A stretch of DNA of 64,000 nucleotides from Gammaproteobacteria bacterium. GTDB taxonomy: Bacteria > Pseudomonadota > Gammaproteobacteria > Steroidobacterales > Foliamicaceae. Under the pieces are notes generated by a model. It had not been told where the DNA came from and made no database searches. It was given only the letters and a program-made list of their open reading frames with translations. The stretch is taken from assembly GCA_009844425.1 (NCBI GenBank), contig VYBN01000033.1, forward strand, positions 1 through 64,000, given 5' to 3'. Below are positions 21,726 to 63,983 of this stretch, in pieces. The stretch's first letter is position 1. Each line of letters starts with the position of its first letter. The position numbers were made by a program, and so were the translations under genes.

Positions 21726-21835
21726 GGCCCGCGCTTTCCCCTTCTCTTGCGGGAGACGCATGAATCCATCCATGGAGCTTGGTTCCGCCATCCATGGCTC
21801 CAACACTCCCTCAAGAGAAGGGGAAAGCGCGGGCC
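21726..21835 (+). repeat. Dispersed hairpin element A (forward)
   Basis: Outer arms pair over 24 perfect bp starting GGCCCGCGCTTTCC, plus one mismatch and GGGAG/CTCCC. The core starts ACGCATGAA and contains hairpin 1 TCCA-TCCA-TGGA and hairpin 2 GCCA-TCCA-TGGC. It lies between valS and iorA, antisense to both. The stem could also act as a terminator after valS. Confidence 0.85.
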
Positions 21836-21855
21836 TTCGGCTGGTGCTACGGGCG

Positions 21856-24699
21856 CTACTCTTGCTGCATGGCGTCGAGCTGACGCATCTGCTCGCCCAA
21901 GCGTTCAAGGTCACGAACTAACGCGGCCCGGCGGTCATGCACGCCCTGGACGACGTCGGGCGGGGCCTTGTCCAGGAACTGCGGGTTGGCCAGCTTTTTC
22001 TCGGCCGCCTGCAGGCCCTTTTCGGCCTGGGCGAGGAGCTTGCCGAGGCGGGCGCTTTCGGCCGCCGGGTCGATCACGCCGGCCAGGGGCGTCAGAAGCC
22101 TCAGCTCGCCATGCAGTGCGGACGCGGCGGGCGGCGCCTCGGCGTCCGCTGCGAGCAGCGTGAGTTTGTCTATGCCGGCCATCGGGTAAAGGAGCTCCGA
22201 AAGCGATTCCATCCGCTCATGGTCTTTTCGGCCGCCGCCCTGGGCCAGCACTTCCAGCCGGCGGCTTGGCGGCAGGTCCAGTTCACCGCGGATCTGCCGC
22301 ATTCCCAGGACGAAACCCTGGAGCCACTCGATCTCGGCTTCGGCCTCGCGGTCCTCGGGAAAACCATCGGCTTGGGGCCAGGACGCGATCATCACGCTTT
22401 CGCCGCCGGTTCCCGCCAGAGGGGCGGCGCGCCGCCACAGCGCCTCGGTGATGAACGGCATGATCGGATGCAGCGCCCGCAGCACGGCCTCCAGCACGCG
22501 AACCAGCGTATGCCGGGCCGCGGCGGCGGCCTTGGCGTCGTCGCCGGTCAGAACGATCTTCGCCAGTTCCAGGTACCAGTCGCAATATTCGCGCCAGACG
22601 AAGTCGTACATGGCGCGGCTGGCCAGGTCGAGCCGGTAGCCGTCCAGCCCCTGGGCGGTGGCCTTGAGGGCCTTGCCCAGGCGGGAGACGATCCAGCGGT
22701 CGGCGGGCCCAGGGTGGGTGTATATCGAGGGCGGGACGCCCTCGCTCCCAGGTGTTGAGGGCGGGACGCCCTCTTTCCCGGGTGCGCCGCCCTCGCTCCC
22801 GGGCTGCTGCATGAATACGAAGCGGGCGGCGTTCCAAAGCTTGGTGCAGAAATTGCGGTAGCCGGCGGTGCGGTCGAGATCGTAGCGAATGTCCTGGCCG
22901 GTGCTGGCCATCGCGGCGAAACTGAACCGCACGGCGTCGGCGCCGAATGCCGGGATGCCTTCGGGGAACTGCTTGCGCGTCGCGCGCTCGATCTCCGGCG
23001 CCAGTTGCGGCTGCATCAGCCCGGCCGTTCGTTTCTCCACCAGGCCGTCCAGGCCCACGCCGTCGATCAGGTCCAGGGGGTCGATCACGTTGCCCTTCGA
23101 CTTGGACATCTTCTGGCCTTCGTGGTCGCGGATCAGTCCGTGCACGTAAACCTCCCTGAACGGCACGTCGCCCATGAACTTAAGGCCCATCATGATCATC
23201 CGCGCGACCCAGAAGAACAGGATGTCGAAGCCGGTCACCAGCACCGTGCCCGGATAGAAGCGCTTCAGTTCCGGCGTTTCCTCCGGCCAGCCCAGCGTCG
23301 AGAACGGCCACAGGGCCGACGAGAACCAGGTGTCGAGCACGTCCTCGTCCCTTCGCAGCGGATAGTCGTGCGGCAGCTTGTGCCGCTGGCGCGCCTCGGC
23401 TTCGTTCCGGCCGACGAAGACCTCGCCGTCCTCGCCGTACCAGGCGGGTATCCGGTGTCCCCACCAGAGCTGGCGGCTGATGCACCAGTCCTCGATATTG
23501 CGCATCCACTCGAAATAGGTGGCCGCCCAGTTTTCGGGAACGAAGCGCACCCGCCCGTCCTCGACCGCGGCGATGGCGGGTTCGGCCAGGGGCGCGGCGC
23601 GCACGTACCACTGGTCGGTCAGGAAGGGTTCCAGCACGGCCTGAGACCGGTCGCCCCGCGGAACGGCGTGGCGGTGCTCCTTGACGCCCGCCAGCGCGCC
23701 TTGCTCCTGTAGCGCCTCGACCACCGCCTTGCGGGCATCGAAGCGGTCCAGGCCGGCGAATGCCGGCGGCGCGCCGTCGTTGATACGGCCCCGGGGGGTG
23801 AGCACGTTGATCGCGGGCAGGTTGTTGCGCCGGCCGATTTCGTAGTCGGTGAAGTCGTGCGCGGGAGTGACCTTGACGCAACCGGTGCCGAACTCCGGGT
23901 CCACCGCCTCGTCCGCCACGATGGGAATTTCCCGCCCGGTGAGCGGCAGGCGCACCATCCGGCCCACGAGTTGCCGGTAACGCTCGTCTTCGGGATGCAC
24001 GGCCACGCCGGTGTCGCCCAGCATGGTCTCGGGGCGGGTCGTGTCCGCCTCCACCGCGCCATCGCCGTCCACCAGCGGGTAGCGCAGACGCCACAGATGC
24101 CCGTCCTCCTCGCTGGACACCACTTCCAGGTCGGAAAGCGCAGTCTGCAGCACGGGGTCCCAGTTCACCAGCCGCTGCCCGCGGTAGATCAGGCCCTCTT
24201 CGTGCAGGCGCACGAAAACTTCCCGGACCGCGCGGCTGCGCGCTTCGTCCAGCGTGAAGCAGTCGCGCGAGAAGTCCAGCGACGCGCCCAGCCTCCGCAG
24301 TTGGTCCCCTATACGCCCGCCGGACGACTCCTTCCAGGCCCAGACCCGCCGGACGAACTCCTCGCGCCCCAGCTCGCGGCGGTTCAGGCCCTCGGCTTCG
24401 AGCTGCCGCTCCACCACCATCTGGGTGGCGATGCCGGCGTGGTCCACGCCCGGCTGCCACAGCGCGCAGTCGCCGCGCATCCGGTGGTAGCGGGTGAGCG
24501 CGTCCATCACCGTGTCCTGGAAGGCGTGCCCCATGTGCAGGCTGCCGGTCACGTTGGGCGGCGGAATGACGATGCAGAACGGCGGACCGTCCCCGCGCGG
24601 CGCAAAGTAGCCCGCCCGCTCCCACCGCCGGTACGCCTCGCCCTCAATCTCCGTCGGCCGATACCTTTCCGCCAGCGCCCGCTCCCTCATGTCGCCCAT
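21856..24699 (-). CDS. valS: Valyl-tRNA synthetase
   Basis: A 947-residue class I synthetase that charges tRNA-Val. The HIGH motif is seen as [15 protein letters not shown], the KMSKS motif as [12 protein letters not shown], and the editing domain shows [14 protein letters not shown]-terminal coiled-coil arm ends the protein ([21 protein letters not shown]). Between the catalytic core ([12 protein letters not shown]) and the anticodon-binding domain (ADRWIVSRL) lies an unusual linker with two EGVPPS units encoded by an inserted repeat. ATG 24699 is assumed; an internal ATG three codons later is possible, and neither has a clear ribosome site. Confidence 0.95.
22727..22773. repeat. Two mini-hairpins inserted in frame within valS
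   Basis: Two identical 17 bp units (22727-22743 and 22757-22773), each a 7 bp stem with a TCC loop on the minus strand (GAGGGCG-TCC-CGCCCTC), lie 30 bp apart inside valS. A degenerate third unit follows to about 22800. The design matches the inner hairpin of element G, suggesting kinship with the dispersed family. They encode the linker peptide units EGVPPS. Confidence 0.7.
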
Positions 24700-24749
24700 A
24701 CCAGACTCAATGTGCGAGTGTGCGCCAGCCGATACCTTTCCGCCAGCGC
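24657..24749. repeat. 22 bp direct repeat at the 5' end of valS
   Basis: The same 22 bp occurs at 24657-24678, inside valS and encoding ALAERYR, and at 24728-24749, just upstream of valS and next to element B. The offset is 71 bp. It is a partial duplication of the valS start region, perhaps made when element B arrived or moved. The upstream copy is not part of valS. Confidence 0.7.
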
Positions 24750-24752
24750 AAG

Positions 24753-24855
24753 CCCCTCCATGCCCCCTTCTTCAGGGAGTATTGGAGGCAGGGATGCCGG
24801 AGCAAGCTCCATGGATGGATTCATGCGTCTCCCGGAAGAAGGGGGCATGGAGGGG
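24753..24855 (-). repeat. Dispersed hairpin element B (reverse)
   Basis: Outer arms start CCCCTCCATGCCCCC and pair over 21 bp, then one mismatch, then GGGAG/CTCCC. Read on the minus strand the core is ACGCATGAA, hairpin 1 TCCA-TCCA-TGGA, hairpin 2 GGCA-TCCC-TGCC. It lies between pepA and valS, in the sense orientation for both genes. Confidence 0.85.
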
Positions 24856-24876
24856 CGAGACCAAAGCGCCAGCCAG

Positions 24877-26361
24877 CTACTGACCCAGCAGGAACTCGGT
24901 AAGCAAAGGCACCGGACGCCCCGTACTGCCCTTGCTGCCTCCGGTCTTCCACGCCGTCCCGGCGATGTCCAGGTGCGCCCAGCGCGCATTCTTGACGAAT
25001 CGCGACAGGAAGCAGGCCGCGGTCGTGGCGCCGGCGAAGCGCGAACCGATGTTGGCCATGTCGGCGAAGTTGCTCTTCAGTTCGGGCATGTATTCCGGGC
25101 CCATGGGCAGCCGCCAGACCGGATCGCCGGCCTTGTCGCCTGCCGCTTGCAGCTCCTCGGCGAGGCCGTCGTTGTTCGCGAACAGGCCGCTGTAGTGGCG
25201 CCCCAGCGCCATCAGGCAGGCGCCCGTCAGCGTGGCGACGTCCACCACCCTGGACGGCTTGTAGCGCAGCGCATAGTAAAGCGCATCCGCCAGTATCAGC
25301 CGGCCTTCGGCGTCGGTATTGAGGATCTCGATGGTTTCGCCGGACATCGCCTTCACGATGTCGCCCGGCTTGGTGGCGCGGCTGCCGGGCATGTTCTCGA
25401 CTGCCGCCGCCAGGACCACCAGGTTGATCGGCAGCCTGAGTTCGATCGTGGCGTGCAGGGCGGCCATCACCGAGCCCGCCCCGCTCATGTCGAACTTCAT
25501 CTCGTCCATCGCCCGCCCGGGTTTCAGCGAAATCCCGCCGGTGTCGAAGGTCACGCCCTTGCCGACCAGCGCGACGGGGGGCGAGTCGTCCGACGCGCCC
25601 TTGTAATGGAGCACGATCAGCCGGGGCTTCAACTCGCTGCCTTCGCAAACCGACAGCAGCGAGTTCATCCCCAGTTCCTTCATTTCGTCTTCCTGGAGTA
25701 TCTCGGCGGTGACGCGGGTGCTGCGGCGCGCCAGCTTGCGCGCTTCCGATTCCAGGTAGGCCGGAGTGCATACGTTTGCCGGCAGGTTGCCCAGTTCCCG
25801 CGCATAGTTGCGTGCCCGTCCGATGGCGCGGCCCTGCCTCAAGCCCAATTTCGCCTGCGCCTCTTCCGCCTCACCATCGATCGCGACGGTGAGCCGGCGG
25901 TCCTTCGGCCGGGTGTCCTTCACCCTCTTGCGGGTCGTCGTGTAGCGATAGGAGGCATAAAGCCATTGCTCGGCGAAGCTTCGCGCCTTGCGCGCCGCAT
26001 CCATGCCCGGCACGTCTTCCAGTCCCATCAGGCTTACCGCCGTCGTTGCGTTTGACCGCTCGGCCCTCTTGACGGCGGCCCCCACGGCCTTGCGCCAGCC
26101 GGCGGCGTCCAGCTTGTCCTTGTTGCCGAGGCCGGCGAGCAGCAGATGGCTCACGCCCAGGCGGCCCGTATGGGTAAGCAGCAGCGTTTCTCCGGACTTC
26201 CCGCGAATGTCCCCCGAAGCCATGGCGCCGGCGATCAGATTGCGCAGACCCGCACTCAGACCGGCGGTGGCGTTGGCCGGCTTTCCGTCCTGATAGACCG
26301 GGGCGATCGCCAGGTCAGCTTGTAAACTGTTCAAATTCTGCGTGGTGATATCGAATTGCAT
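24877..26361 (-). CDS. pepA: Leucyl aminopeptidase (M17, PepA)
   Basis: A 494-residue dizinc aminopeptidase that removes N-terminal residues from peptides. The M17 signature NTDAEGRL is present, and metal-site segments include VGKGVTFDTGGISLKP and MKFDMSGAGSV. PepA can also bind DNA in some bacteria. The ATG at 26361 has an AAGAGGCG ribosome site about 7 nt upstream, so it is preferred over 26388. It is divergent from lptF, as in many gammaproteobacteria. Confidence 0.93.
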   Translation of the reverse strand: MQFDITTQNLNSLQADLAIAPVYQDGKPANATAGLSAGLRNLIAGAMASGDIRGKSGETLLLTHTGRLGVSHLLLAGLGNKDKLDAAGWRKAVGAAVKRAERSNATTAVSLMGLEDVPGMDAARKARSFAEQWLYASYRYTTTRKRVKDTRPKDRRLTVAIDGEAEEAQAKLGLRQGRAIGRARNYARELGNLPANVCTPAYLESEARKLARRSTRVTAEILQEDEMKELGMNSLLSVCEGSELKPRLIVLHYKGASDDSPPVALVGKGVTFDTGGISLKPGRAMDEMKFDMSGAGSVMAALHATIELRLPINLVVLAAAVENMPGSRATKPGDIVKAMSGETIEILNTDAEGRLILADALYYALRYKPSRVVDVATLTGACLMALGRHYSGLFANNDGLAEELQAAGDKAGDPVWRLPMGPEYMPELKSNFADMANIGSRFAGATTAACFLSRFVKNARWAHLDIAGTAWKTGGSKGSTGRPVPLLTEFLLGQ

Positions 26362-26451
26362 GTGGTCGCCTCTTGAAAAACCGCCCAACGGTGCTGCTTT
26401 AAGGGAATCGGCGCAGGCCGTAACGGTGGCTCATTCTATTGCCTTTGAGGA

Positions 26452-27555
26452 ATGATGCGGATACTGGACCGGTATCTCTTTCGCGAAGGCCTGACGGCGT
26501 TCAGCGGCGCGCTTGCGGTGCTTCTGGTGCTGCTGGGCACCAACCAGTGCGTGCGAATACTGTCGGCTGCGGCCTCGCAGGATCTGCCCCGCGACGCCGT
26601 GCTGCCGATGATCGGCTACACCTGCCTGCAGTACCTGCCTGTGATCATGCCGGCGGCGCTGTTCTTCGGCCTGCTTCTCGCCCTGGGGCGCATGTATCGC
26701 GACTGCGAGTTGCCGGTGATCCGCGCCTGCGGCTACGGCGCCCGTTCCCAGCTCAAGCCGGTGCTGGCGCTGGCCCTGCCGGTGGCGGCGCTGGCCTGCT
26801 GGATGACCCTGGACCTTGCGCCCGGCGCGCGCCGGGCAGTGGATGAACTGGAACGGGAAGCGGCGTCCATGGGCGATCTGCGCCGTCTGGAACCGGGCCA
26901 TTTCGTTTCCATGGGCGGCCAGGGCGTGGTCTATTCCGAGGAGGCGGATGAGCAGGGCCGGCTCTACCGCGTGTTCGCCCACCGGCGCGTGGACGGGCGC
27001 ATGCAGGTCATCGTGACCGACCGGATGGCGCTTCAGGAAACCGCGGACCCGCTGGTGCGCATGGTGACCTTCTACGACGGCGTGCTGTACGACGGATGGC
27101 CGGGCGAGTCGCAGATCCGCATCGTGCGCTTTGCCGAGCACGGCATACCGGCGATCCTGCCCGAAACGGTTTCCCCGGGGATGAACATGGACGCGGCGCC
27201 CAGCGCGGAACTCTGGTCGAAAGGCGATCCCGAATCGCTGCTGGAACTTCAGCGCCGCCTTTCGGCCCCTCTGGTCTTGCTGATCCTGGCAGTGATGGCG
27301 CTGCCCCTGAGCCGCCGCCTGCCGCGCCAGAGCCGCTTTGCATCGCTCCCCTGGGCATTGCTGGTGTACGTGATTTACACTAACCTGGTCACCGCGGCGC
27401 TTTCCTGGGCACAGCAGGGAATCACGCCGCTATGGCTTGGCGTGTGGTGGGTTCACCTGCTGCTCGCCTGCGCGGCCGCGGCGTATTTCGGGATGGGCGA
27501 TTCGCACCTGATCAGGCAATTCGACCGGCGCATCCGCGCCATGCAGACGGCATGA
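26452..27555 (+). CDS. lptF: LPS export ABC transporter permease LptF
   Basis: A 367-residue inner-membrane permease of the LptB2FG complex that extracts lipopolysaccharide from the membrane. The N terminus MRILDRYLFREGLTAF is typical. Helices lie at about 15-37, 55-80 and 100-120, then a periplasmic beta-jellyroll region, then three C-terminal helices from about 268. A GAGG site precedes two adjacent ATG codons (26452, 26455). It is coupled to lptG through an ATGA overlap. Confidence 0.9.
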   Translation: MMRILDRYLFREGLTAFSGALAVLLVLLGTNQCVRILSAAASQDLPRDAVLPMIGYTCLQYLPVIMPAALFFGLLLALGRMYRDCELPVIRACGYGARSQLKPVLALALPVAALACWMTLDLAPGARRAVDELEREAASMGDLRRLEPGHFVSMGGQGVVYSEEADEQGRLYRVFAHRRVDGRMQVIVTDRMALQETADPLVRMVTFYDGVLYDGWPGESQIRIVRFAEHGIPAILPETVSPGMNMDAAPSAELWSKGDPESLLELQRRLSAPLVLLILAVMALPLSRRLPRQSRFASLPWALLVYVIYTNLVTAALSWAQQGITPLWLGVWWVHLLLACAAAAYFGMGDSHLIRQFDRRIRAMQTA

Positions 27556-28643
27556 CGCTTCTTGACCGCTACCTGTTGCGCGGGGTCGTCCCGCTTGTGC
27601 TCATGTGCCTCTGCGCGCTGGTGTCGCTTTCGCTGTTCGTGGACTTCGCCCAGCAGTCCCGCATGGCGGGCCAGGGCGCCTACACGCTGCTGGACGGTCT
27701 CGCCTACTCCGCGTTGCGCATTCCGCAATTCGCGTTCGACGCGCTGCCCGCGGCCGCCATCATCGGAAGTTTCCTTGCGCTGGGCAATTTTTCCGCGCAC
27801 CACGAACTGACGGTGGCGAGGGCTTCCGGCGTGTCGGTGCTCCGGCTTTCGGTTCCGGTGTGGGCCGCGGGAGCGCTTTTCGTTGCGCTGGCGGCGTTCC
27901 TCGGCGAATCGCTGGCTCCGCCGATGCACGCCCTGGGCAAGCGCATGCGGGCGGCCGCCCTGAATCCGGCGCCGGCTTTGACCCAGGGAGAGAGCGTCTG
28001 GATGCGCGACGGCGACCTGATTCTGAACCTGCGCCCCGGGGGCGACGAAGAGGGCTACGCGAGCGCCTTTCTGTTCCGCCTGGCGCCGGAGGGTATCCGC
28101 AGTTTCGGCCGGGCGCGGGCGGCGAGGATCAACGAGGACGGAAAGCTCGAACTCGGCGGCTATGAAGAGACCGTGTTGGGCGAGGACGGCGCACAGGTGT
28201 CGTACAGCGATCTCAGGGTCACCGAGACCCGCCTGAGCCCGGATATCGTCGAACTGGTCGAACTGCGCCCCGAGCTGATGACGGTCGGCAGCCTGTTGCG
28301 CTACGCGCGCTACCTGGAAGCGAACCAGCTGAGCGGCCTGCGCTTCCGCCTGGAAATGCAATCCCGGCTTGCGACGATGGCGGCAGTGGCGCTGATGTGC
28401 GTGCTGGCGTTGCCGCTCGTGTTCACCAACCGCAGGACCCTCGGCGGCAGCGCCCGGGCCGCGCTGGGCCTGGGCATCGCGCTGATCTGGTTTCTGGCGA
28501 ACCGCGGGGTGGCCGAAGCCGGTCAGCTCTATGGCCTGGCGCCGTGGCTGGCGGGCTGGGCGCCCACCCTTGTGCTCGGCATGGCCGTGATCCTGCTTCT
28601 AGTGCGCGCCGACCGCTTGCGCTGGCGCCGGGCTCCCGATTGA
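27552..28643 (+). CDS. lptG: LPS export ABC transporter permease LptG
   Basis: A 363-residue partner of LptF. It starts MTLLDRYLLRGVVPLVL, with the same arrangement of three helices, a periplasmic domain and three helices (C-terminal set from about residue 270). The start at 27552 overlaps the lptF stop as ATGA. A longer in-frame start at 27432 would lie wholly inside lptF and is rejected. Confidence 0.9.
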   Translation: MTLLDRYLLRGVVPLVLMCLCALVSLSLFVDFAQQSRMAGQGAYTLLDGLAYSALRIPQFAFDALPAAAIIGSFLALGNFSAHHELTVARASGVSVLRLSVPVWAAGALFVALAAFLGESLAPPMHALGKRMRAAALNPAPALTQGESVWMRDGDLILNLRPGGDEEGYASAFLFRLAPEGIRSFGRARAARINEDGKLELGGYEETVLGEDGAQVSYSDLRVTETRLSPDIVELVELRPELMTVGSLLRYARYLEANQLSGLRFRLEMQSRLATMAAVALMCVLALPLVFTNRRTLGGSARAALGLGIALIWFLANRGVAEAGQLYGLAPWLAGWAPTLVLGMAVILLLVRADRLRWRRAPD

Positions 28644-28664
28644 GCGCATTTTTTTGCGGGCATA

Positions 28665-28739
28665 TGGCGCTCCCTAGGGGAATCGAACCCCTGTTTCCAG
28701 ATTGAGAGCCTGGCGTCCTGACCCCTAGACGAAGGGAGC
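28665..28739 (-). tRNA. tRNA-Glu (CTC anticodon)
   Basis: A 75 nt cloverleaf. The acceptor GCTCCCT pairs with AGGGAGC, followed by discriminator G and an encoded CCA. The D-arm is GTCTAGGGGTCAGGAC, the anticodon arm CCAGG-CTCTCAA-TCTGG with anticodon CTC, and the T-arm AGGGG-TTCGATT-CCCCT. It closely follows bacterial tRNA-Glu. It lies between lptG and pcnB on the opposite strand. Confidence 0.95.
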
Positions 28740-30788: not shown

Positions 30789-30904
30789 CCTTCGGTTTCG
30801 CTGCCCGCCCTTTTCGGGAACGTCGGAGGCAGGATGCCGACGCCGAGCCCACAGGGATGTGCTTGCCGGCGTGTCCCGAAAAGGGCGGGCAGCGAAACCG
30901 AAGG
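30789..30904 (-). repeat. Dispersed hairpin element H (reverse, divergent core)
   Basis: Outer arms pair perfectly over 31 bp beginning CCTTCGGTTTCGC. Read on the minus strand the core holds hairpin 1 CACA-TCCC-TGTG and hairpin 2 GGCA-TCC-TGCC, flanked by GTCGG/CCGAC. It lacks the ACGCAT start of the other copies, so it is a diverged member. It lies between the kinase gene and panB, antisense to both. Confidence 0.75.
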
Positions 30905-31825: not shown

Positions 31826-31935
31826 GTTGCCCATGCGGCACCTCCGTTCCGGGAGACGCATAAATCCATCCATGGAGCTCGGTTCCGCCATCCATGGCTC
31901 CAACGCTCCCGGCACGGAGGTGTCGCATGGGCAAC
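31826..31935 (+). repeat. Dispersed hairpin element C (forward), overlapping the panC start
   Basis: Outer arms of about 30 bp with two mismatches, beginning GTTGCCCATGCG. The core is ACGCATAAA, hairpin 1 TCCA-TCCA-TGGA, hairpin 2 GCCA-TCCA-TGGC. The right arm contains the panC Shine-Dalgarno sequence and ATG, so folding of the transcript would bury them. It is in sense orientation between panB and panC. Confidence 0.85.
31916..31929 (+). promoter_or_regulatory. panC ribosome-binding site and start codon inside a hairpin arm
   Basis: GGAGG (31916-31920) lies 6 nt before the ATG at 31927. Both are in the right arm of element C and would pair with 31826-31854 when the stem forms. Confidence 0.65.
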
Positions 31936-39329: not shown

Positions 39330-39437
39330 GCCCGGCTATTGCGCCCCTTCTCGCTGGAGACGCATGAAGTCGTCCTGACGCTCGGCGAAGGCATCCTGCC
39401 TTCGACGCTCCCGCGAGAAGGGGCGCAATAGCCGGGC
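39330..39437 (+). repeat. Dispersed hairpin element F (forward)
   Basis: Outer arms pair over 25 bp starting GCCCGGCTATTGCGC, then one mismatch and GGAG/CTCC. The core starts ACGCATGAA, with hairpin 1 GTCG-TCC-TGAC and hairpin 2 AAGGCA-TCC-TGCCTT. It lies in the convergent amiC/ligB spacer, in sense orientation to amiC. Confidence 0.85.
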
Positions 39438-39471: not shown

Positions 39472-39579
39472 GCCTCGTTCGTTGCCCCCTCCCCGCAGGG
39501 GCGTCGGGGGCAGGACGCCCCCGACGAGCGTCAGGACGACTTCATGCGTCCCCTGCGGGGAGGGGGCAACGAACGAGGC
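39472..39579 (-). repeat. Dispersed hairpin element G (reverse)
   Basis: Outer arms pair perfectly over 30 bp starting GCCTCGTTCGTTGCC. On the minus strand the core has hairpin 1 GTCG-TCC-TGAC and hairpin 2 GGGGGCG-TCC-TGCCCCC. It forms an inverted pair with F, 34 bp apart, in sense orientation to ligB. Confidence 0.85.
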
Positions 39580-56015: not shown

Positions 56016-57244
56016 CACGAAGACGCGACCAGGAAATCGTGACCGCGCTCGATATCGGCACCTCCAAGGTGGCCGCCATCGTGGCAGCGGTCGATGAGGA
56101 GTCCAGGGAACTGGAGATTCTGGGTTTCGGCTCAAGCCCGTCGCAGGGCATGAAGCGCGGCTCGGTCGTGAACATCGAGGCAACGGTGCGCTCGATTGAC
56201 CAGGCCATCGGCGAAGCGGAGCTGATGTCCGGTGTGCAGATCGGCGAGGTGATCGTGGGCATTTCCGGGGACCACGTTCAAAGCCTTACGTCCCACGGAA
56301 TTGTCGCGGTGCGCGGCGACGAAGTCTCGGAATCGGACGTCGCGCGCGTGATCGAGGCGGCCCGCGCGGTGGTCGTGCCCTCGGACAAACGCGTGCTTCA
56401 CGTGCTGCCCAGGGATTACGTCGTGGACGATCAGGACGGGATTCTTGATCCCACCGCCATGTCGGGCGTGCGCCTGGAGGCGCATGTCCACATCATCACC
56501 GTGGGGGAGAGCGCCGCGCAGAACATCGAGAAATGCGTTCGCCGCTGCGATCTGCGCTCCCGGCGCATTGTGCTCGAGCATCTCGCCTCGGGCACCGCCA
56601 TTCTTACCGAAGACGAGATGCAGCTCGGCTGCTGCGTGCTCGACATCGGCGCCGGCACGACCGACATCGCCGTGTTCGAAGGCGGCTCGATCCGCTTCAC
56701 CCACGTCATTCCGATCGCCGGCGACCAGGTGACCTACGACATCGCTCAATCCCTCAGAACGCCGACCCCGGCAGCGGAGCAGCTGAAGATCCGCTATGCC
56801 TGCGCACTGGCCCAGATGGTGGAGGAAGACGAGGAAATCGAGGTGGTCAGCGTCGGTGACCGGCCGCCCCGCAAGCTGTCCCGGCAGGCCCTGGCGCGGG
56901 TCGTGGAACCCCGCTACGAGGAGCTCTTCCAGTTGGTGCACAACGTGCTGCATCGCGGCGGCTATCTCGAAAGCGCGGCGGCCGGCGTGGTGCTCACGGG
57001 GGGCACATCGGCCATGCCGGGCGCCGTGGAACTGGCTGAGGAAGTTTTGAACGTGCCGGTCCGCCTGGGTTACGCGCAGCGGGCCGGGGGGATGAAGGAA
57101 GTCGTAAGCAATCCGGCCCACGCCACCGGCGTCGGCCTGTTGCTGTACACGCTCGAGTCGCGCGACGAAGGCGCGGCCGCGGGGGGCAGGTCTCGAAAGG
57201 GCGGCCTGCGCTCGGCGTTCAAGTGGATCAAGGGTCAATTCTGA
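56012..57244 (+). CDS. ftsA: Cell division protein FtsA
   Basis: A 410-residue actin-like protein that tethers FtsZ to the membrane. TALDIGTSKVAAIVA is the phosphate-1 loop, VLDIGAGTTDIAVFEGG phosphate-2, and VLTGGTSAMPGAVELAEEVL the adenosine motif. The C-terminal amphipathic tail is GLRSAFKWIKGQF. ATGA overlap with ftsQ. Confidence 0.95.
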   Translation: MTRRRDQEIVTALDIGTSKVAAIVAAVDEESRELEILGFGSSPSQGMKRGSVVNIEATVRSIDQAIGEAELMSGVQIGEVIVGISGDHVQSLTSHGIVAVRGDEVSESDVARVIEAARAVVVPSDKRVLHVLPRDYVVDDQDGILDPTAMSGVRLEAHVHIITVGESAAQNIEKCVRRCDLRSRRIVLEHLASGTAILTEDEMQLGCCVLDIGAGTTDIAVFEGGSIRFTHVIPIAGDQVTYDIAQSLRTPTPAAEQLKIRYACALAQMVEEDEEIEVVSVGDRPPRKLSRQALARVVEPRYEELFQLVHNVLHRGGYLESAAAGVVLTGGTSAMPGAVELAEEVLNVPVRLGYAQRAGGMKEVVSNPAHATGVGLLLYTLESRDEGAAAGGRSRKGGLRSAFKWIKGQF

Positions 57245-57282
57245 CCATCTGTCATCGCTAGAAGATGCGAAGGAGCAACGTA

Positions 57283-58530
57283 ATGGAGGCAAAAGACATG
57301 AATATCAGGCTGGTGAGGTCCGAACCGGGAGCGACGCCGCGGCTGAAGGTCGTGGGCGTGGGCGGGGCCGGCGGCAATGCGGTCAATGAGATGGTCAAGT
57401 CCCATGTCCGCAACGTGCAGTTTGTCGCGATCAATACCGACGAACAGGCCATGTCCAACTCGGGGGCCGACATCAGGCTCACGATAGGGCGCGCCGTGAC
57501 CCAGGGGATGGGCGCGGGCTCCGATCCCGGCAAGGGCCGCGAGGCCGCCCTGGAGGACGAAGACCGGCTGAAGGCGGTCATGGATGGCGCCGACATGATT
57601 TTCGTGGCCGCGGGAATGGGCGGCGGGACCGGGACCGGCGCCGCCCCGGAGGTCGCGCGCGTAGGCCGGGAGTGCAATCTGCTGGTCGTCGGGGTGGTGA
57701 CGACGCCGTTCGATTTCGAGGGGCCCGCCAGGGCGCAGATTGCCGGCGAAGGGATCGGCGCGCTGCAGGAGCACGCCCATTCCCTGATCACCGTCCCGAA
57801 CGAAAAGCTGTTCGAATATTTCTGCGATCAGGGCGAAGGCGACGTGACCATGGAAGAGGCCTTCAGCGAGTCCAACAAGGTATTGCGCAACGCTGTGCGC
57901 GGCATCGCCGAGTTACTGACCTGCCCGGGCCGGATCAACGTGGATCTCGCCGACGTTCGCAAAGTGATGCGGGAGCCGGGCCGGGTAGTGATCGGAGCCG
58001 GCGAGGCGACCGGGCAGGACCGGGCGCGCGAGGCGCTCGAACACGCGATGCAGAGCCCATTGCTTCAGGGCGTGGATGTGCGTGACGCGCGCGGGCTGCT
58101 GGTCAACATCACCCACGGCAACGACCTGGGCATGCGCGAGTTCAAGTCCCTGGGCGACTCGCTGCAGAACATGCTGGCCCGCGAGGGCATGGTCAAGTTC
58201 GGCGAGGTGGTCAACGAGTCGATGAAGGGCGCCGTTCGGATCACTCTGGTCGCCACCGGCCTGAGCATTCCCGGACAGGAAGGAGAGGCGCCCGCAAGGC
58301 CCGCGCGCAGCAGCGTCAGGGCGGAGCCGCGCGCGACCGGCACTTACGGGGCCCAGCCGGAAAATTTGCGTTCCGGCGAGCCGCGCCGCAGCATACTCGG
58401 ACTGTCGCAGCAGCCCAGTTACGAGGGCCTGGAGCGTCCGGCTGTAATGCGCGCGGCGTCCGGCGGCGGATCGCGCCGCAACGACCTCTTCAATCCGGTG
58501 CCCACCCATCTGCGCAAGCAAGTGGACTGA
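57283..58530 (+). CDS. ftsZ: Cell division GTPase FtsZ
   Basis: A 415-residue tubulin-like GTPase forming the Z ring. The GTP-binding signature is GMGGGTGTGAAP, with GVGGAGGNAVNEM at the N terminus. A variable linker rich in Arg and Ser ends in the conserved C-terminal peptide form NPVPTHLRKQVD, which binds FtsA and ZipA. ATG 57283 has an AAGGAG site 8 nt upstream and is preferred over ATG 57265. Confidence 0.96.
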   Translation: MEAKDMNIRLVRSEPGATPRLKVVGVGGAGGNAVNEMVKSHVRNVQFVAINTDEQAMSNSGADIRLTIGRAVTQGMGAGSDPGKGREAALEDEDRLKAVMDGADMIFVAAGMGGGTGTGAAPEVARVGRECNLLVVGVVTTPFDFEGPARAQIAGEGIGALQEHAHSLITVPNEKLFEYFCDQGEGDVTMEEAFSESNKVLRNAVRGIAELLTCPGRINVDLADVRKVMREPGRVVIGAGEATGQDRAREALEHAMQSPLLQGVDVRDARGLLVNITHGNDLGMREFKSLGDSLQNMLAREGMVKFGEVVNESMKGAVRITLVATGLSIPGQEGEAPARPARSSVRAEPRATGTYGAQPENLRSGEPRRSILGLSQQPSYEGLERPAVMRAASGGGSRRNDLFNPVPTHLRKQVD

Positions 58531-58699
58531 GCGAACTGTTGGGTGTCCCGGCGCTGCGCGCTGAAACGGGCTGCGCCTGTCGAATGGATTGCTCCTTTTG
58601 TGCAGCCGGACTGATCCGTCGCCTGCGTCCAGCCGGTGTAAGATAGCCTGAAAGCACCGATTCGCATTTCGCCATGCAAATGGCCGAAAAGGGGGGATT

Positions 58700-61531
58700 A
58701 TGCGCGCCTATTGCTTACTCTTTTCTCTGTTGATTTCGGCCCCTGCCGCGGCGCAGCAGCAAGAAGTTCAAACGGAGGGCGCCTACGGGCCGGTTCTTGA
58801 GGAGATCATCGTGACGGCCACGCGCCGGGAACGCTCCGTCATGGAGGTCCCGCTGGCTGTTTCCGCCTACGGCGCCGAGCAACTCGAGTTGAGCGGGGTG
58901 ACGGACATCGGGCATCTGATGCGCATCGCGCCGAGCCTGCATCTGGGCACAGGGCAGGCGGAAACGGTCGGCGCCACCGCGCGAATCCGCGGCATCGGCA
59001 CCAACAGCGACAACCCTGGTTTCGAGCCGGCGGTAGGCCTCTACGTGGACGGCGTCTACCGCAACCGGGCCGGCGTTGGATATAACGAGCTGGGCGCCAT
59101 AGAACGGGTCGAGATCCTGCGCGGACCGCAGGGCACGCTGTTCGGACGAAACGCATCGGCCGGCGTGGTGAGCATCATCACGGCCGGCCCCGATCCCGAA
59201 GGTTCGGGATACGGCGACATCAGCTTCGGATCCTATGACTCGACCCGGATCGAAGCCGGCGCCAGCGGGAGCGATTCCGCCAGCGGTATTTCGGCGCGGC
59301 TTGACACCGTGTGGCACAAGCGCGACGGATTCCTGGAAGACCCCAATTACGACCGGAGCTACAACGATCGCGACCGCCTGTTCGTGCGCGGGCAGTTGAT
59401 CTACGAGCCCAACGCGGGCACGTCCATAAGGCTGATTGCGGATCACACTACCCGCGACGAGCAGTGCTGCGCCGCGGTAGGCCTGGTTCGGGGCCCCACT
59501 GCGGCCATTATTCAGGGCATCTCGGCGGCGCAGACCCGCAATCCCGCTATCGTCGGCATCGCATTCGATCCGTATGAGCGGAAGGCCACGGTCAGCGCGG
59601 GTTCCGGCTATCACCAGGGCATGGATGAAACCGGAGTTTCGGTGGAGATCAACGCCAGCACCGGCCTGGGCCGCGTGACGAGCATCACGGCGATCCGGGA
59701 CTGGCGGACGGAGCGCGGCATGGACATCGATTTCTCCGTCGTCGATGTGGGCGAGCGTCCCCAGGGTGAATCCACCACGGGTTTCGAGACCTTCACGCAG
59801 GAGATTCGCATCAACGGCGAAGCCGGCCCGGTGGACTGGCTGGTGGGCGCCTTCTATGCCGACGAGAAGCTGGACTATACCGATGTGCTGGAGTTCGGCG
59901 CCGGCTATTCGCCCTACGCCAATGCGATCGGGGGCGCGACGGCGGCCGCAGTGGGCGCGGGCTTCGCGCAGCTGGGCGCAGCGGCGCCGGCGCTGGAAGC
60001 CGGCGCCGCCCAGGCCGCAGCGGGCGCGGCGGGCTTCGCCGCTGGCCTTGCGCCCTTCCTTCCGCCGGGTTTTGCGGTTCCGCAGTTGACCGCCAACCTG
60101 CCGCCGTTCCCGGCCTTTCCGTTTCATCCCTGGGCCAGCTACGAGGAATACTCCGGGCGCGCTTTTTTCGGCAACGGCTCGCGCGACAATTTCGAGCAGA
60201 ACTCCGAAAGCTGGGCGCTGTTTACGCACAACAGCGTTGCCCTGGCCAACGACTTTGAACTGACCGTGGGCCTGCGCTACACCTCGGAGAGCAAGTCGAT
60301 CGACGCCGGCCTGAAATCGAGCGACCAGGTTTGCCAGCCCTTCTCCGGGCGCGTGCTCGGATATCTTCAGTCCATGCAGGCTTATCTGGGCGGCGTGCAG
60401 GCCTACGCCGGCGGCGTAAACCAGTATCTGCAGGAGCTCGACGGCTTTGTTCAGCAGGCAACGCAGGCGATTACGAACCCGGCGCTGCAGGCGCAGATCA
60501 CCCAGGGGGCGGAACAGGTGAAGGCCGGCGCCCAGCAGCTTTTGCCGGGCGCCGCGCAGCTGGCGCAGGGTGGCCAGGCGCTGCTGACCAACCCGGATGT
60601 GGCCGCGGGCATCGGAACGATGACGGCTTTCGCCTGTCTCCCGTTCGTGGATCCCACCCTTGACGGCATCTATTCCGGTTCCCGGGACGAGAGCGAAATC
60701 TCGGGCACGGTGCGGCTGTCCCGCCAGGTGGGCGACTACCTGATATACGGCGGCTACGCCCGCGGCTACAAGGCCGGCGGCTTCAATATGGACCGCACCG
60801 GCCTGATCAGTCCGATTCTCACTTTGCTGGCCACCGGAACCGCCAATGTGCCGGGGGTGCACGAATGGGCTTTCGATCCCGAAACCGTCGACGCCTTCGA
60901 CCTGGGCGCCAGGTTCGAGCTGGAGAACCGGCGCGCCATGATGGATATCAACCTCTTCTATGAGAAATTCGACGATTTCCAGTTGACGGCTTTTACCGGT
61001 CTGGCCTTCGAGGCGCTGAACATTCCGGAAGTGATCAGCCAGGGTATCGAGATCGAGGCGCGCGGCGCCGTGTTTGAAGGAGTTGAAGTGTTCGGCGGCG
61101 TTACCTACGCCGACGTCAAGTATGGCGAGGGGCTCGAATACGGGGTGCGTTCCGGACAGCAGATGACGCATGCGCCCGAGTGGACCGGCGTGGCCGGCGC
61201 CACCTTGCGCTTCCCCATCGGCGCGCTGGAGGGCGCCTTTCACGTGGATGCGCGCTATACCAGTGAACACAACACGGGCTCCGATCTGGACATCGAAAAG
61301 CAGCAGGATGCGTTCACGGTGGTCAACGCCAGATTGATGCTGAGCCGCCCGGGTTCGCCGCGCTGGACCGTCGATCTGTGGGCGCGGAATCTTCTGGACG
61401 AGGAGTATTTCGTTACCGCCTTCGACGCTCCGCTGCAGGGCAGCGGCACCGGTCCGGGATCGACCCAGACGTTCAACGCGTTTCTCGGCAATCCGCGCGA
61501 ATACGGAGTAAGCGTCCGCTACGAGTTCTGA
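58700..61531 (+). CDS. TonB-dependent receptor with low-complexity extracellular insertions
   Basis: A 943-residue outer-membrane receptor. Signal peptide 1-18, a TonB-box-like segment EEIIVTATRRE (34-44), plug 45-165 (VEILRGPQGTLFGRNASAG), and a barrel ending in SVRYEF. Two atypical insertions: an Ala/Gly/Pro-rich stretch at about 408-478, and a Gln/Ala/Gly-rich helical stretch at about 551-640 flanked by Cys545 and Cys646, which could form a disulfide. A strong AGGGGGGA site precedes the ATG. It interrupts the usual ftsZ-lpxC adjacency. The substrate is unknown; the 169 bp before it holds no other gene. Confidence 0.88.
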   Translation: MRAYCLLFSLLISAPAAAQQQEVQTEGAYGPVLEEIIVTATRRERSVMEVPLAVSAYGAEQLELSGVTDIGHLMRIAPSLHLGTGQAETVGATARIRGIGTNSDNPGFEPAVGLYVDGVYRNRAGVGYNELGAIERVEILRGPQGTLFGRNASAGVVSIITAGPDPEGSGYGDISFGSYDSTRIEAGASGSDSASGISARLDTVWHKRDGFLEDPNYDRSYNDRDRLFVRGQLIYEPNAGTSIRLIADHTTRDEQCCAAVGLVRGPTAAIIQGISAAQTRNPAIVGIAFDPYERKATVSAGSGYHQGMDETGVSVEINASTGLGRVTSITAIRDWRTERGMDIDFSVVDVGERPQGESTTGFETFTQEIRINGEAGPVDWLVGAFYADEKLDYTDVLEFGAGYSPYANAIGGATAAAVGAGFAQLGAAAPALEAGAAQAAAGAAGFAAGLAPFLPPGFAVPQLTANLPPFPAFPFHPWASYEEYSGRAFFGNGSRDNFEQNSESWALFTHNSVALANDFELTVGLRYTSESKSIDAGLKSSDQVCQPFSGRVLGYLQSMQAYLGGVQAYAGGVNQYLQELDGFVQQATQAITNPALQAQITQGAEQVKAGAQQLLPGAAQLAQGGQALLTNPDVAAGIGTMTAFACLPFVDPTLDGIYSGSRDESEISGTVRLSRQVGDYLIYGGYARGYKAGGFNMDRTGLISPILTLLATGTANVPGVHEWAFDPETVDAFDLGARFELENRRAMMDINLFYEKFDDFQLTAFTGLAFEALNIPEVISQGIEIEARGAVFEGVEVFGGVTYADVKYGEGLEYGVRSGQQMTHAPEWTGVAGATLRFPIGALEGAFHVDARYTSEHNTGSDLDIEKQQDAFTVVNARLMLSRPGSPRWTVDLWARNLLDEEYFVTAFDAPLQGSGTGPGSTQTFNAFLGNPREYGVSVRYEF

Positions 61532-61547
61532 ATCAGCGCCTCCCGGA

Positions 61548-61655
61548 GCTTTCTCATCGCCTCCTTCTTCCGGGAGTTTGTGAGCCAGGGATGGCGGAAC
61601 AAAGCCCCATGGATGGGTTCATGCGTCTCCCGGAAGAAGGAGGCGATGAGAAAGC
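61548..61655 (-). repeat. Dispersed hairpin element D (reverse)
   Basis: Outer arms pair perfectly over 29 bp starting GCTTTCTCATCGCC. On the minus strand the core is ACGCATGAA, hairpin 1 CCCA-TCCA-TGGG, hairpin 2 GCCA-TCCC-TGGC. It lies between the TonB receptor gene and lpxC, antisense to both. Confidence 0.85.
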
Positions 61656-61709
61656 GGAATCGAAGCGCAGCTTGCTTTATTCCGAAAAATGCCGATAATT
61701 CGGCAGCTT

Positions 61710-62666
61710 ATGGGTGATTCCATCCGGCAAGAGTTTGTCCGGCAACGAACCCTGCGCGGCACTGTCACGGTTTGCGGCATAGGCCTGCACAGCGGTCGAA
61801 AGGCTCAAATGACACTACGTCCCGCCGCTCCCAACAATGGAGTGGTGTTCCGGCGCGCGGACCTTGCGGGCGCGCCGGACATTCCGGCGCGCCATGACTT
61901 CATCGTCGACACCCGGCTCGGCACGACGCTGGGGAGCGGCAATGCGCGGGTGGCCACAGTGGAGCACCTGCTGTCCGCCCTGGCCGGAACCGGCATCGAC
62001 AACGCCTGGATCGATCTGGATGGCCCGGAGGTGCCGGCGCTGGACGGCAGCGCTTCGGCTTTCGTCCTGCTCGTGGAAGAGGCGGGCGTGGAGCAGCAGG
62101 AGACGCCCCGGCGCTATATCCGGGTTCTTGAGGAGGTCCGGGCGGAACAGGGCCGGCATTGGGCGGCGCTTTCGCCAGGCGAGGGCTACACGCTTTCCTA
62201 CCGGGGCGATTTCGCCCATCCCGCTTTCGCTCGGGGCGGCCAGACTCACGATTTTGAGTTTTCGGCCGGCGGCTATATCGAACAGATAAGCCGCGCGCGC
62301 ACCTTCGGTTTCCTCCACGAAGTGTCGGCCATGCGCCGGCATGGCCTGGCGCTGGGCGGCGGTCTGCACAATGCCGTGGTGTTCGACGATTACCGGGTCA
62401 TGAACGAGGGTGGCCTGCGCTACGCCAACGAGCCGATACGGCACAAGCTGCTGGATGCGGTGGGCGATCTGTCGCTGCTCGGCCGGCCCCTGATCGGCCA
62501 GTACCGGTGCTTCGGGTCGGGACACACCCTCAACGCGCGCCTGATGACGGAACTGATGCAGCGTTCTTCCGCCTGGGAGGAGGTAAAGGGGGTCTCCCGC
62601 GCCGCGGACGGGTCGCGCAGTCCCGATGCCGCCGGCCGGTTCGACAGCCTTACAGGGCTAACCTGA
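61710..62666 (+). CDS. lpxC: UDP-3-O-acyl-N-acetylglucosamine deacetylase
   Basis: A 318-residue zinc deacetylase, the committed step of lipid A synthesis. RQRTLRGTVTVCGIGLHSGRKAQM starts the fold, with zinc-site and signature segments TVEHLLSALAG, ISRARTFGFLHE and HKLLDAVGDLSLLG, and the catalytic His in FGSGHTLNARL. The start at 61710 or 61689 is uncertain because no ribosome site is visible. Confidence 0.93.
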   Translation: MGDSIRQEFVRQRTLRGTVTVCGIGLHSGRKAQMTLRPAAPNNGVVFRRADLAGAPDIPARHDFIVDTRLGTTLGSGNARVATVEHLLSALAGTGIDNAWIDLDGPEVPALDGSASAFVLLVEEAGVEQQETPRRYIRVLEEVRAEQGRHWAALSPGEGYTLSYRGDFAHPAFARGGQTHDFEFSAGGYIEQISRARTFGFLHEVSAMRRHGLALGGGLHNAVVFDDYRVMNEGGLRYANEPIRHKLLDAVGDLSLLGRPLIGQYRCFGSGHTLNARLMTELMQRSSAWEEVKGVSRAADGSRSPDAAGRFDSLTGLT

Positions 62667-62952
62667 TGCGTACGCGTCTGACCGGCCAGCCGCCGTTGCC
62701 TGCGGCCCGTTCCATATTGCCGGCCTCGAATCTCAGGCGGGCGGCCCATTCTGGAGCGGCGGCGAATATCGTCAGCGTGCCGCCCGGATCGAGATCGCTG
62801 CCGGCAAAGCCTTCACGCAGGCCGGGTTGCAGCGATTCGCGCAGCAGGTCGGCCAGCGCCACCTGGGCGCGGGCCTGCTTCGCCAGATCGCCGAGCGCGG
62901 ACTCCGGATTTTCCGGCCGGCTCTTTCGCGGCGACTTTCGAATCGTGCGCAT
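62650..62952 (-). CDS. DciA-like (DUF721) protein
   Basis: A 100-residue basic protein. The stretch LADLLRESLQPGLREGFAGSDLDPGGTLTIFAAAPEWAARLRFEAGNM matches the DUF721/DciA pattern; DciA loads the replicative helicase DnaB in bacteria lacking DnaC. The location between lpxC and the M23 gene also fits. The stop overlaps the lpxC end by 17 bp on the opposite strand. A GGAAAGGA site precedes the ATG. Confidence 0.8.
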   Translation of the reverse strand: MRTIRKSPRKSRPENPESALGDLAKQARAQVALADLLRESLQPGLREGFAGSDLDPGGTLTIFAAAPEWAARLRFEAGNMERAAGNGGWPVRRVRIRLAL

Positions 62953-62982
62953 GTCGTAGAATCCTTTCCTTGCGATATTGCC

Positions 62983-63867
62983 ATGAACCCGAATACCCGA
63001 AACCTGCTGCTGAACCGTAACCTGATCTGGGCCTTCGCCCTGGTTGCCTGTTCGGCCGGAAGCTATCTCGCCGGTAACCTGTTGCAGGATCGGGCAATGC
63101 CGTCCGTGGTCGCCCGCCTGGACAAGCTGCAGACCATGGTGGTGGCGCAGAACGCGGAATTTGCAGAAGCCCGTGCGAACGCGGAGCGCCGGATCGCCGT
63201 CATGGCGGCCCGGGTCGAGGAAATGAAAGCGGCGTTGGTGCAAATGGAAACCTGGCAGACCTCGCTTGAGGAAATGGGCGGCGAAGCCCCATTCAAGCCG
63301 GTGAGCGCCGGCATCTCCAGCCCCGCGCTGGGCTATGAGGGCGAGGTCGCCGGCGAACGGGTGGATCTGATCGCCGAACTCAACCTCCTGACGGCCCGGA
63401 TGAACCAGCGGTTCAAGGAGTTGCAGGGCGTGGCCGACGCGCTTACCCGGGAAGGCGCTGAATCCATGTATGCGCCTACGGGCTGGCCGGTGGATTCGCG
63501 CCGCATCACCTCGTATCGCGGTTTCCGCAAGGATCCGTTCTCCGGCAGGCGGCAATGGCATGACGGCGTGGATATCGACGGCGCCATGGGCGACCCGATA
63601 TACGCCGTGGCGCCGGGCGTCGTCACCTGGTCAGGCCGCAGAAGCACGTTCGGGGAGTTGGTGGAAATCAGTCACGCCGGCGGCTACGTCACCCGCTATG
63701 CGCACAACTCCCTCAATCTCGTGGCGGTGGGCGATTATGTGCAGCGAGGCCAGGAGATCGCCCGTATGGGCCGCAGCGGGCGGGTAACCGGCAGCAGCCT
63801 GCACTTCGAAGTCTTGCGCAACGGCGTTTCCGTGAACCCGGTTGATTTTCTCCGCAGAACTCCCTGA
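62983..63867 (+). CDS. M23 (LytM) family peptidase-like protein, possibly non-catalytic
   Basis: A 294-residue membrane-anchored periplasmic protein. One helix (about 14-33), a coiled coil (about 40-95 and 125-155), then a LytM domain. Zinc ligands H193 and D197 (WHDGVDID) and H274 are present, as is H241 (RYAHNSL). The usual HxH is SLH, so Ser272 replaces one catalytic His. It may be an activator of amidases such as AmiC rather than a peptidase. Divergent from the dciA-like gene. Confidence 0.88.
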   Translation: MNPNTRNLLLNRNLIWAFALVACSAGSYLAGNLLQDRAMPSVVARLDKLQTMVVAQNAEFAEARANAERRIAVMAARVEEMKAALVQMETWQTSLEEMGGEAPFKPVSAGISSPALGYEGEVAGERVDLIAELNLLTARMNQRFKELQGVADALTREGAESMYAPTGWPVDSRRITSYRGFRKDPFSGRRQWHDGVDIDGAMGDPIYAVAPGVVTWSGRRSTFGELVEISHAGGYVTRYAHNSLNLVAVGDYVQRGQEIARMGRSGRVTGSSLHFEVLRNGVSVNPVDFLRRTP

Positions 63868-63874
63868 ATCCGCA

Positions 63875-63983
63875 TAGCGCTTCCATGCCCACTTCTTCCG
63901 GGAGACGCATAAATACATCCCTGTAGCTTGCTCCGGCATCCCTGCCTCCAATACTCCCGGAAGAAGTGGGCATGGAAGCGCTA
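63875..63983 (+). repeat. Dispersed hairpin element E (forward)
   Basis: Outer arms pair perfectly over 30 bp starting TAGCGCTTCCATGCC. The core is ACGCATAAA, hairpin 1 TACA-TCCC-TGTA, hairpin 2 GGCA-TCCC-TGCC. It follows the M23 gene in sense orientation, 17 nt before the window end. Confidence 0.88.

Follow-up and report, generated by a model that had tools for sequence, protein, structure and literature searches.

Interspersed palindromes of Gammaproteobacteria with a conserved core and arms that mostly change in pairs

Introduction

Covariation between paired bases is usually read as strong evidence for selection on RNA structure. In the window, the 64,000-nucleotide stretch of gammaproteobacterial DNA analyzed here, eight dispersed palindromes have stems that differ in sequence from copy to copy and yet are paired. 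The original prediction, made from the sequence alone, took this as pointing to a structure that is either selected or mechanistically copied. We asked which of these upholds the complementarity, how far the elements spread and what they resemble.

Results

All eight predicted elements are present. An independent palindrome finder returned exactly these 8 as the long-armed palindromes of the 64-kb window, and a looser setting also gave 8, compared with a mean of 0.67 in three mononucleotide shuffles run at that setting. The predicted lengths of 102-116 bp, with arms of 25-31 bp, were broadly right, the exact extents being 105-116 bp and 28-31 bp; seven starts were exact and one was off by one (24753 given, 24752 exact).

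Element 1, 21726..21835, + strand: 30-bp arms, core at 21756-21805
Element 2, 24752..24856, - strand: 28-bp arms, core at 24780-24828
Element 3, 30789..30904, - strand: 31-bp perfect arms, divergent core subtype without ACGCATRAA
Element 4, 31826..31935, + strand: 30-bp arms
Element 5, 39330..39437, + strand: 30-bp arms, hairpin 2 longer
Element 6, 39472..39579, - strand: 30-bp perfect arms, core orientation opposite to element 5
Element 7, 61548..61655, - strand: 29-bp perfect arms, stop codon 16 bp before
Element 8, 63875..63983, + strand: 30-bp perfect arms

The elements share a conserved core of ~50 nt with two small hairpins, enclosed by arms of ~30 bp. The core reads as a single strand ACGC(N)RTRAA, hairpin 1 (loop TCCN), GCT and hairpin 2 (TCC loop); the inner ends of the arms pair as GGGAG/CTCCC, and GACG within GAGACGCAT lies partly inside the stem. 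ACGCATRAA, predicted as single-stranded in seven copies, is indeed present in 7 of the 8 window elements, the exception being element 3 (30789), which has CACGCCGGCAAG in its place. The predicted trident design is paired in the host alignment, but it is the minimum-energy fold of some copies only, the core folding otherwise in others; for element 8, the + strand minimum-energy fold contains both small hairpins.

Arm length is 28-31 bp in 93 of 98 main-subfamily copies and 29 bp in 70 of 83 copies of genus g18. The variable part of the arms has a mean pairwise identity of 0.45 (75 host copies, mixed subfamilies). Arm sequence is little constrained except at the inner end, yet Watson-Crick complementarity is near perfect; the palindrome finder is biased to well-paired arms, a bias limited, for the host, by a motif-based check in which 29 of 30 copies were long-armed. 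The arms had been described as locus-specific yet complementary; they do vary and pair, but they are not unrelated everywhere, since many copies share a diverged arm consensus.

A covariance-model search, as the original prediction had proposed, recovered a repeat family both in the host and in its relatives, with at least 149 matches among 150 candidates scored in the host genome and at least 28 in each of 8 congeners (69 scored per genome). A core-plus-inner-stem model matched 43 of the 229 genomes sampled across the class, in 37 of 196 genera (21 scored per genome); all these copy numbers are lower bounds. Two genomes of genus g18, G040 and G027, had at least 43 and 60 model matches with 150 candidates scored per genome, and 38 regions of the first and 42 of the second were sampled, with 38 and 45 elements used. 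Covariation had been reported within a single genome, where it is seen, but the family is not limited to one genome and extends over Gammaproteobacteria.

No Rfam family reached its gathering score on an element in the window or at 20 related loci, so that a known Rfam RNA was rejected; the original prediction had not recognized the family either. The sole match over cut-off in the window was a tRNA, with miRNA hairpins below cut-off. At the related loci, a 6S RNA gene ending ~40 bp before an element was alone in passing its cut-off, and Ysr224 appeared six times below its own, at 26-32 bits where 70 is required. In viral contigs, neither the class-wide core string nor the host string had an exact match (0 each). 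Among element core strings sought in open-access papers one was matched, in an unrelated context only, and the literature searched held nothing directly on these elements.

Copies are mostly intergenic, soon after stop codons and often in convergent junctions. According to gene calls by a simple codon-model script, 51 elements were flanked by a gene on each side, 32 in tandem, 14 in convergent and 5 in divergent arrangement (29, 11 and 4 junctions), and elements occupied 11 of 34 convergent against 4 of 33 divergent junctions. The proportion lying within 30 bp of a stop codon was 65%, modestly above the 51% under random placement in the same spacers (40 elements). Nine of the 51 overlapped predicted genes, eight by 1-63 bp and one wholly inside. 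Within the window, element 1 follows the stop codon of the right-hand predicted - strand gene by 20 bp, element 4 and a predicted gene start share 9 bp, and elements 5 and 6 share one spacer between convergent genes. The core is independent of gene direction: among 54 host elements 13 were sense, 12 antisense, 20 had other cores and 9 were undecided. This placement, together with either core orientation, suggests to us that the elements act, or are tolerated, at mRNA 3' ends irrespective of strand.

The position past stop codons, and the enrichment of convergent over divergent junctions, would also suit 3'-UTR RNAs, terminator-like or stabilizing, whose stems ordinary compensatory mutations would preserve. 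The same can be said of the high fold stability (z of -9.6 to -13.8 on both strands of two elements) and of canonical terminator-like sites being at chance level in 20 kb (17 against 14.0, sd 3.5). We nevertheless consider this explanation unlikely: the core occurs in either orientation, and the changes in the stems, described below, argue the other way.

The predicted stem covariation was borne out. In an alignment of 32 host copies, 98.3% of the cells of the proposed structure were paired, dropping to 42-51% when the structure was slid, and both sides had changed in 272 cells against 59.5 in shuffles. In the outer stem, the 832 cells included 229 with both-side changes, 2 GU and 15 unpaired. 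Across genera, covariation was found in hairpin 2 and at one pair at the base of the hairpin 1 stem, as selection on RNA would have it.

Copies at the same site in sister genomes, compared at an arm identity of at least 0.8 and partly non-independent because some sites recur in several genome pairs, showed 49 concerted and 25 half changes, with 2 both-changed non-pairs, over 26 pairs and 758 positions; the expectation under independence is 1.8 concerted and 116 half. Eleven such pairs in genus g18 (294 positions) had 22 concerted changes, 5 of them transversions, and 10 half, against 0.8 and 49 expected. The ortholog counts cover ~343 kb of the 3.03-Mb host genome and 30 motif loci, the relatives' stretches and 29 contig stretches, some stretches having been chosen for element richness. 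At the site of element 3, G001 differs by 5 concerted and 0 half changes across 26 arm positions; at that of element 2 its arms are identical except for one half-change. Replacement may account for some same-site pairs, which weighs against the copying reading: at one site G001 and G003 match at 100% over the 400-bp left flank, yet their arms are only 0.61 identical.

The 49 concerted changes in the host genus were 24 transitions and 25 transversions, and since a transversion is unbridgeable by a GU intermediate, this half of the changes favors copying over compensatory mutation. GU is also unfavored on the gene-sense strand (3 GU against 7 AC among 1320 pairs in 45 elements). It can further be argued that a single mismatch in a 30-bp stem hardly matters, so that selection on every pair in ~150 copies would be hard to sustain. 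Between the two options offered at the outset, the data therefore favor copying, with selection on the structure a less likely possibility.

Mismatches were not evenly placed. In 73 elements, 24 of 44 arm mismatches fell at positions 5-6 from the inner end, which is where a fold-back primer would anneal; their persistence there could instead be a selected feature, which would speak against copying. In genus g18, 60 of 82 mismatches among 2359 arm positions were at positions 20-23 from the inner end, a placement not predicted by the primer-polarity idea.

The core was inverted in 5 of the 26 same-site pairs, two of the five sharing one G006 element. The clear inversions relative to G006 were L075:9694 (arm identity 0.97) and L075:5431 (0.90), both clear because their arms are unusual. 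Genus g18 had 0 inversions in 13 pairs, and its changes were mostly transitions, both of which weigh against copying. One study describes arm homogenization together with spacer inversion as the outcome of template switching (PMC8604942), the published signature of that mechanism at replication.

Sites also turn over. In G006, 20 of 37 mappable host copies were scored absent, at least 2 of them wrongly: L090:10290 and L100:9745 were scored empty but are occupied, one being edge-clipped and the other carrying an arm indel. The site of element 1 is empty in G006, G007, G003, G001 and G005, that of element 3 in G006, G002, G007, G003 and G005, and that of element 4 in G001, G002, G003, G006 and G007. 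The element 2 site is empty in G007, is occupied in G003 by different arms and a different core subtype, and in G006 has an inverted-core element at or adjoining it. The spacer of elements 5 and 6 is missing in G007 and G005 and holds other palindromes in G006, G001, G002 and G003. The palindromes that G006 has opposite 39330 and 39472 represent another element. Element 7 had no mapping onto the G006 stretches compared.

Such rapid turnover, like the narrow range of arm length, would be expected if an enzyme inserted the core with one arm and templated the second arm from the first at birth, perfect arms then marking young copies. We hold this to be distinctly unlikely, because orthologous copies whose flanks match have undergone concerted changes at the site itself (L088:18089 against G006, 3 concerted and 0 half arm changes), and no candidate mobilizing enzyme emerged from searches for Y1 transposase (PF01797) and reverse transcriptase (PF00078).

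Y1 was found in none of 8 genus genomes, a set that included the host and left out G002, and Y1/RAYT mobilization was rejected for the genus. Of 16 further genomes that bear elements, 12 had Y1; both genus g18 genomes examined lacked it. Model R2, run on 22 loci that surround Y1 matches (40 such matches were listed), gave 2 hits, neither flanking the gene on both sides, which leaves core-flanked Y1 genes unsupported; one lay ~1.6 kb from the Y1 gene, in a genome carrying 251 copies of the motif, and the other, weak and degenerate (23 bits), in G207, where a 137-aa TnpA-like gene ends ~80 bp before it. Reverse transcriptase was present in only 4 of 8 genomes and was rejected as a universal partner.

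Alternatively, the arms might be pre-existing host hairpins such as terminators, into whose loops the core alone inserts, or an inverted target flank. Nested extra hairpins lie inside the loops of L010, L034, L042, L043 and L054, some empty sites in relatives carry short simple hairpins, and dimers of the REP sequences GTAG-15 and H. neapolitanus CGTC-1 are reported to occur inside longer palindromes (PMC3733652). This origin seems highly improbable to us, since arm length is too uniform, many arms share their diverged consensus, and empty sites in close relatives had, by eye, no arm copy bar a weak partial likeness at element 1, on which ground derivation of the arms from the target site was rejected. 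In empty/filled comparisons, spacers were rearranged around the elements, and no clean target-site duplication was seen.

Discussion

We favor, as the likely interpretation, REP/MITE-like interspersed palindromes of Gammaproteobacteria whose arms drift yet are re-copied from each other. That arm changes are mostly paired is probably due to one arm serving as the pattern for rewriting the other at replication: the nascent arm would fold back or switch template and be resynthesized from its partner, a quasi-palindrome correction by which mutations would be copied across or erased. Switching within the first arm would invert the core. Copies would be lost by deletion and gained through some mobilizing process. 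More tentatively, and with considerable doubt on our part, these could be a hitherto undescribed, class-wide family of structured mobile DNA, its two-hairpin core bound, probably as a folded single strand, by a conserved putative enzyme, with self-repairing palindromic arms that drift and a core that sometimes flips.

The elements offer a natural high-copy system in which pairing is apparently upheld largely by DNA copying, and their dozens of orthologous copies could be used to measure bacterial template switching. They are also a repeat family in many gammaproteobacterial genera that is absent from Rfam.

The comparison with REP/BIME and MITE families suggested initially holds for placement and palindromy and fails for tag, stem length, Y1 and conserved ends. 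Mobile hairpins with variable paired stems are known from mitochondria as double-hairpin elements and other palindromes; these are organellar, and we liken them to the present elements by description, not sequence. REP-type repeats are high-copy intergenic palindromes, mostly past stop codons in convergent or tandem spacers and often in inverted pairs, and tagged REPs have stems of 6-13 bp (PMC3733652). Like REP/BIME/REPIN, the present elements are intergenic and near 3' ends, with few in divergent spacers. In contrast, they are ~100 bp long with three helices and arms of ~30 bp, appear from their sequence to have no unpaired GTAG/CGTC end tag, and have no Y1 in 8 genus genomes, Y1 in other carriers mostly not adjoining a core. 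The H. neapolitanus REP consensus contains attcacg, which, reverse-complemented, matches CGTGAAT of the class-wide core and may indicate a relative. MITEs such as ERIC, NEMIS and RUP have conserved transposase sites as their ends (PMC3733652). They resemble the present elements in being 70-300 bp, non-coding and gene-adjacent with long terminal inverted repeats; here, however, the outer arms are copy-specific and the core is conserved instead of the ends.

Quasi-palindrome correction is a mechanism of mutation and not a family of elements. Spacers that switch are short, 2-5 nt in the inversion table of PMC8604942, whereas the present spacer is ~50 nt, which counts against copying although it is foldable. 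Template switching is described in PMC8794818 as able to create and maintain perfect stems, and quasi-palindrome correction shares with the present elements arm homogenization, spacer inversion and perfect stems.

The window elements and their family in the host genome

Scanned blind for palindromes, the 64-kb window yielded exactly eight long-armed inverted repeats, the same eight elements that the original prediction had described; a looser threshold still gave eight, against a mean of 0.67 in three shuffles. The arms are 28 to 31 bp long and enclose cores of 48 to 54 nt. The predicted ACGCATRAA is present in seven of the eight, the exception being the third element, at 30789, which has a divergent core subtype. 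The sole Rfam match above cut-off in the window is a tRNA gene (28668-28739, - strand).

The 3.03-Mb host genome contains 66 exact matches to GGGAGACGCATRAA (reversed control, 0). Long paired arms are found in 29 of the 30 copies fetched by this motif (exception, stretch L015), and the well-paired arms are therefore no artefact of palindrome-based searching. The covariance-model search suggested with the original prediction (model R1, E up to 0.01) gave 149 matches in the host, a minimum, because 150 candidates were scored and the true copy number may be higher; each of the eight other genomes of the genus gave at least 28.

Within 343 kb of host sequence examined there are 55 long-armed palindromes, including further core subfamilies and side-by-side pairs; two (L075:13516 and L076:287) are not of the family design. 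The latter (L076:287-395) has 34-bp arms, does not resemble the family core and is possibly an insertion-sequence remnant. The side-by-side pairs at L074:4557-4823, L088:3166-3397 and L090:1003-1233 join two different palindrome subfamilies with similar arms, like composite units. Hairpin 2 encloses a third hairpin, about 25 nt long and of the GCGCCGGG..CGGCGC type, in L010, L034, L042, L043, L054, L075:9694-9825 and L076:12281-12413; at L093:6882 and L055:86 the extra hairpin is placed in the single-stranded segment instead. The element loops thus seem to accept further hairpins. In many of the copies at L001-L059, the arms are flanked by GCTTCGATYCC on one side and by TACGG on the other; copies of a second group have CGCTGG...CCAGCG arms, and AAAATCGCAAG-like sequence often comes next. 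The unit that moves may extend beyond the palindrome.

Concerted change of the arms at shared sites

The predicted stem covariation is evident in the outer stem of 32 host copies, where 229 of 832 cells are changed on both sides, 2 are GU and 15 are unpaired. Elements occupying the same site in sister genomes were then compared (139 elements, 64 site pairs). In the 26 pairs with arm identity of at least 0.8, the 758 positions hold 49 concerted changes (both arms changed, pairing kept; 24 transitions and 25 transversions), 25 half changes (one arm changed) and 2 double non-pairs, whereas 1.8 concerted and 116 half changes would be expected if the arms were substituted independently at that rate. 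Flank identity averages 93.4%, and the core is inverted in five of these 26 pairs. Across all 64 site pairs, replaced elements among them, there are 497 concerted changes, 62 half changes and 20 non-pairs. In an independent second genus, g18, 11 pairs gave 22 concerted and 10 half changes, and no core inversions were found among the compared pairs.

Compensatory drift at the RNA level could also preserve pairing. Read in gene sense, 1320 pairs include only 3 GU and 7 AC, and the core lies in sense orientation to the gene in 13 cases and antisense in 12. Together with the concerted excess and the core inversions, these counts speak against such drift as the main force. They match the template-switch signature described in PMC8604942, homogenised arms and inverted spacers, with stems that, according to PMC8794818, template switching can maintain. 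Of the two possibilities originally raised, a selected or a mechanistically copied structure, the copied one is favoured by the 49 concerted against 25 half changes and by the core inversions.

Three observations fit template switching less well: several same-site pairs have arms only 0.3-0.6 identical, which look like wholesale replacement; the mismatches in g18 are concentrated at positions 20-23, counted from the inner end; and core subtypes are swapped at some sites. At L062:4213 and L064:16197, the relatives G001 and G003 have a 100% common left 400-bp flank and the same junctions, with clearly different arms and core subtype, representing a replacement or a burst of change.

Distribution across the order and class

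Of the 58 genomes searched, the host among them, 17 have at least one model match. The same architecture recurs with other arms in more distant genera of the order, for example 29-bp arms around ACGCGGTGAATACATCCCTGTACGCTCCGCGCGCGCATCCCTGCGCGCGAGG. In the class, 21 of 369 genomes, from 21 of 272 genera, contain the core motif TGAATACRTCCNTGTANGCTC (reversed control, 0), and a single 5.1-Mb genome has 251 copies. In elements outside the order, some outer arms are very short and others reach 39 bp. Model R2, built from the core and inner stem, matches 43 of 229 genomes of the class (37 of 196 genera, host included; E up to 1e-6). When 15 sequences of other genera are compared, pairing holds in 96.7% of cells and 88 are changed on both sides, compared with 22.7 in shuffles; these changes extend to hairpin 2 and to a single pair at the hairpin 1 base (CG 10, GC 2, AU 1, other 2). 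The carriers named by contig scan (29 stretches) are uncultured Gammaproteobacteria MAGs, presumably from sponges, judging by their sample codes. In L145:1229-1589, a 6S RNA gene (RF00013) is followed about 40 bp on by a copy with 39-bp arms.

Genomic context, turnover and mobilisation

For the 51 host elements flanked on both sides by gene calls, the neighbouring genes are tandem in 32 cases, convergent in 14 and divergent in 5; the distinct occupied junctions number 29, 11 and 4, versus 214, 34 and 33 in all. Overlap with a predicted gene is seen for nine of the 51, and is complete for one of them. For 40 elements, the median distance to a stop codon is 21 bp; placed at random within their own spacers, they would lie at a median of 30 bp. 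This context makes a role at 3' ends plausible but unproven. Ordinary terminator-like sites were no more frequent than chance in a 20-kb stretch.

When 54 host palindromes (arms of at least 22 bp) were compared with the relative G006, 17 were unmapped to the G006 sequence examined, 20 were scored absent (in at least two cases wrongly), and at the sites of the other 17 G006 has a palindrome, though in some cases that of a different element. At L102:6853, G006 retains just the final bases of a single arm, the remnant expected from a deletion between short repeats. Site comparisons with sister genomes resolved no target duplication and did not cleanly catch an insertion. The 2.9-kb segment L074:8628-11509, single in the host, matches two adjacent places in both G006 and G001; either it was duplicated in tandem in the relatives or the host has lost a copy.

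Y1 transposase was found in none of eight genus genomes, host included, and in 12 of 16 other element carriers; reverse transcriptase was found in four of eight genomes. Around Y1 matches, 2 of 22 loci have a core match, one about 1.6 kb from the gene and one in carrier genome G207 (L156:1465-2030), where a 137-aa TnpA-like gene ends about 80 bp before a weak, degenerate core copy. No Y1 gene with a core on both sides was found at these 22 loci. The G207 arrangement is a possible, if thin, link to IS200/IS605-type mobilisation.

Relation to known repeat families

No Rfam family was matched at its cut-off: the elements gave only sub-threshold hairpin matches, such as Ysr224, found six times in 20 related loci with scores of 26-32 bits where the cut-off is 70. 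Searches of the open-access literature (six core strings in full text, and related topics) found no description of the family among the matches listed. In the comparison with REP/BIME repeats that had been proposed, the host genus showed neither the REP/BIME tag nor the stem length nor the RAYT features. These repeats are the closest known kind: PMC3733652 describes dimers of REPs enclosed in long palindromes and places REPs near 3' ends, so that the general kind is already known.
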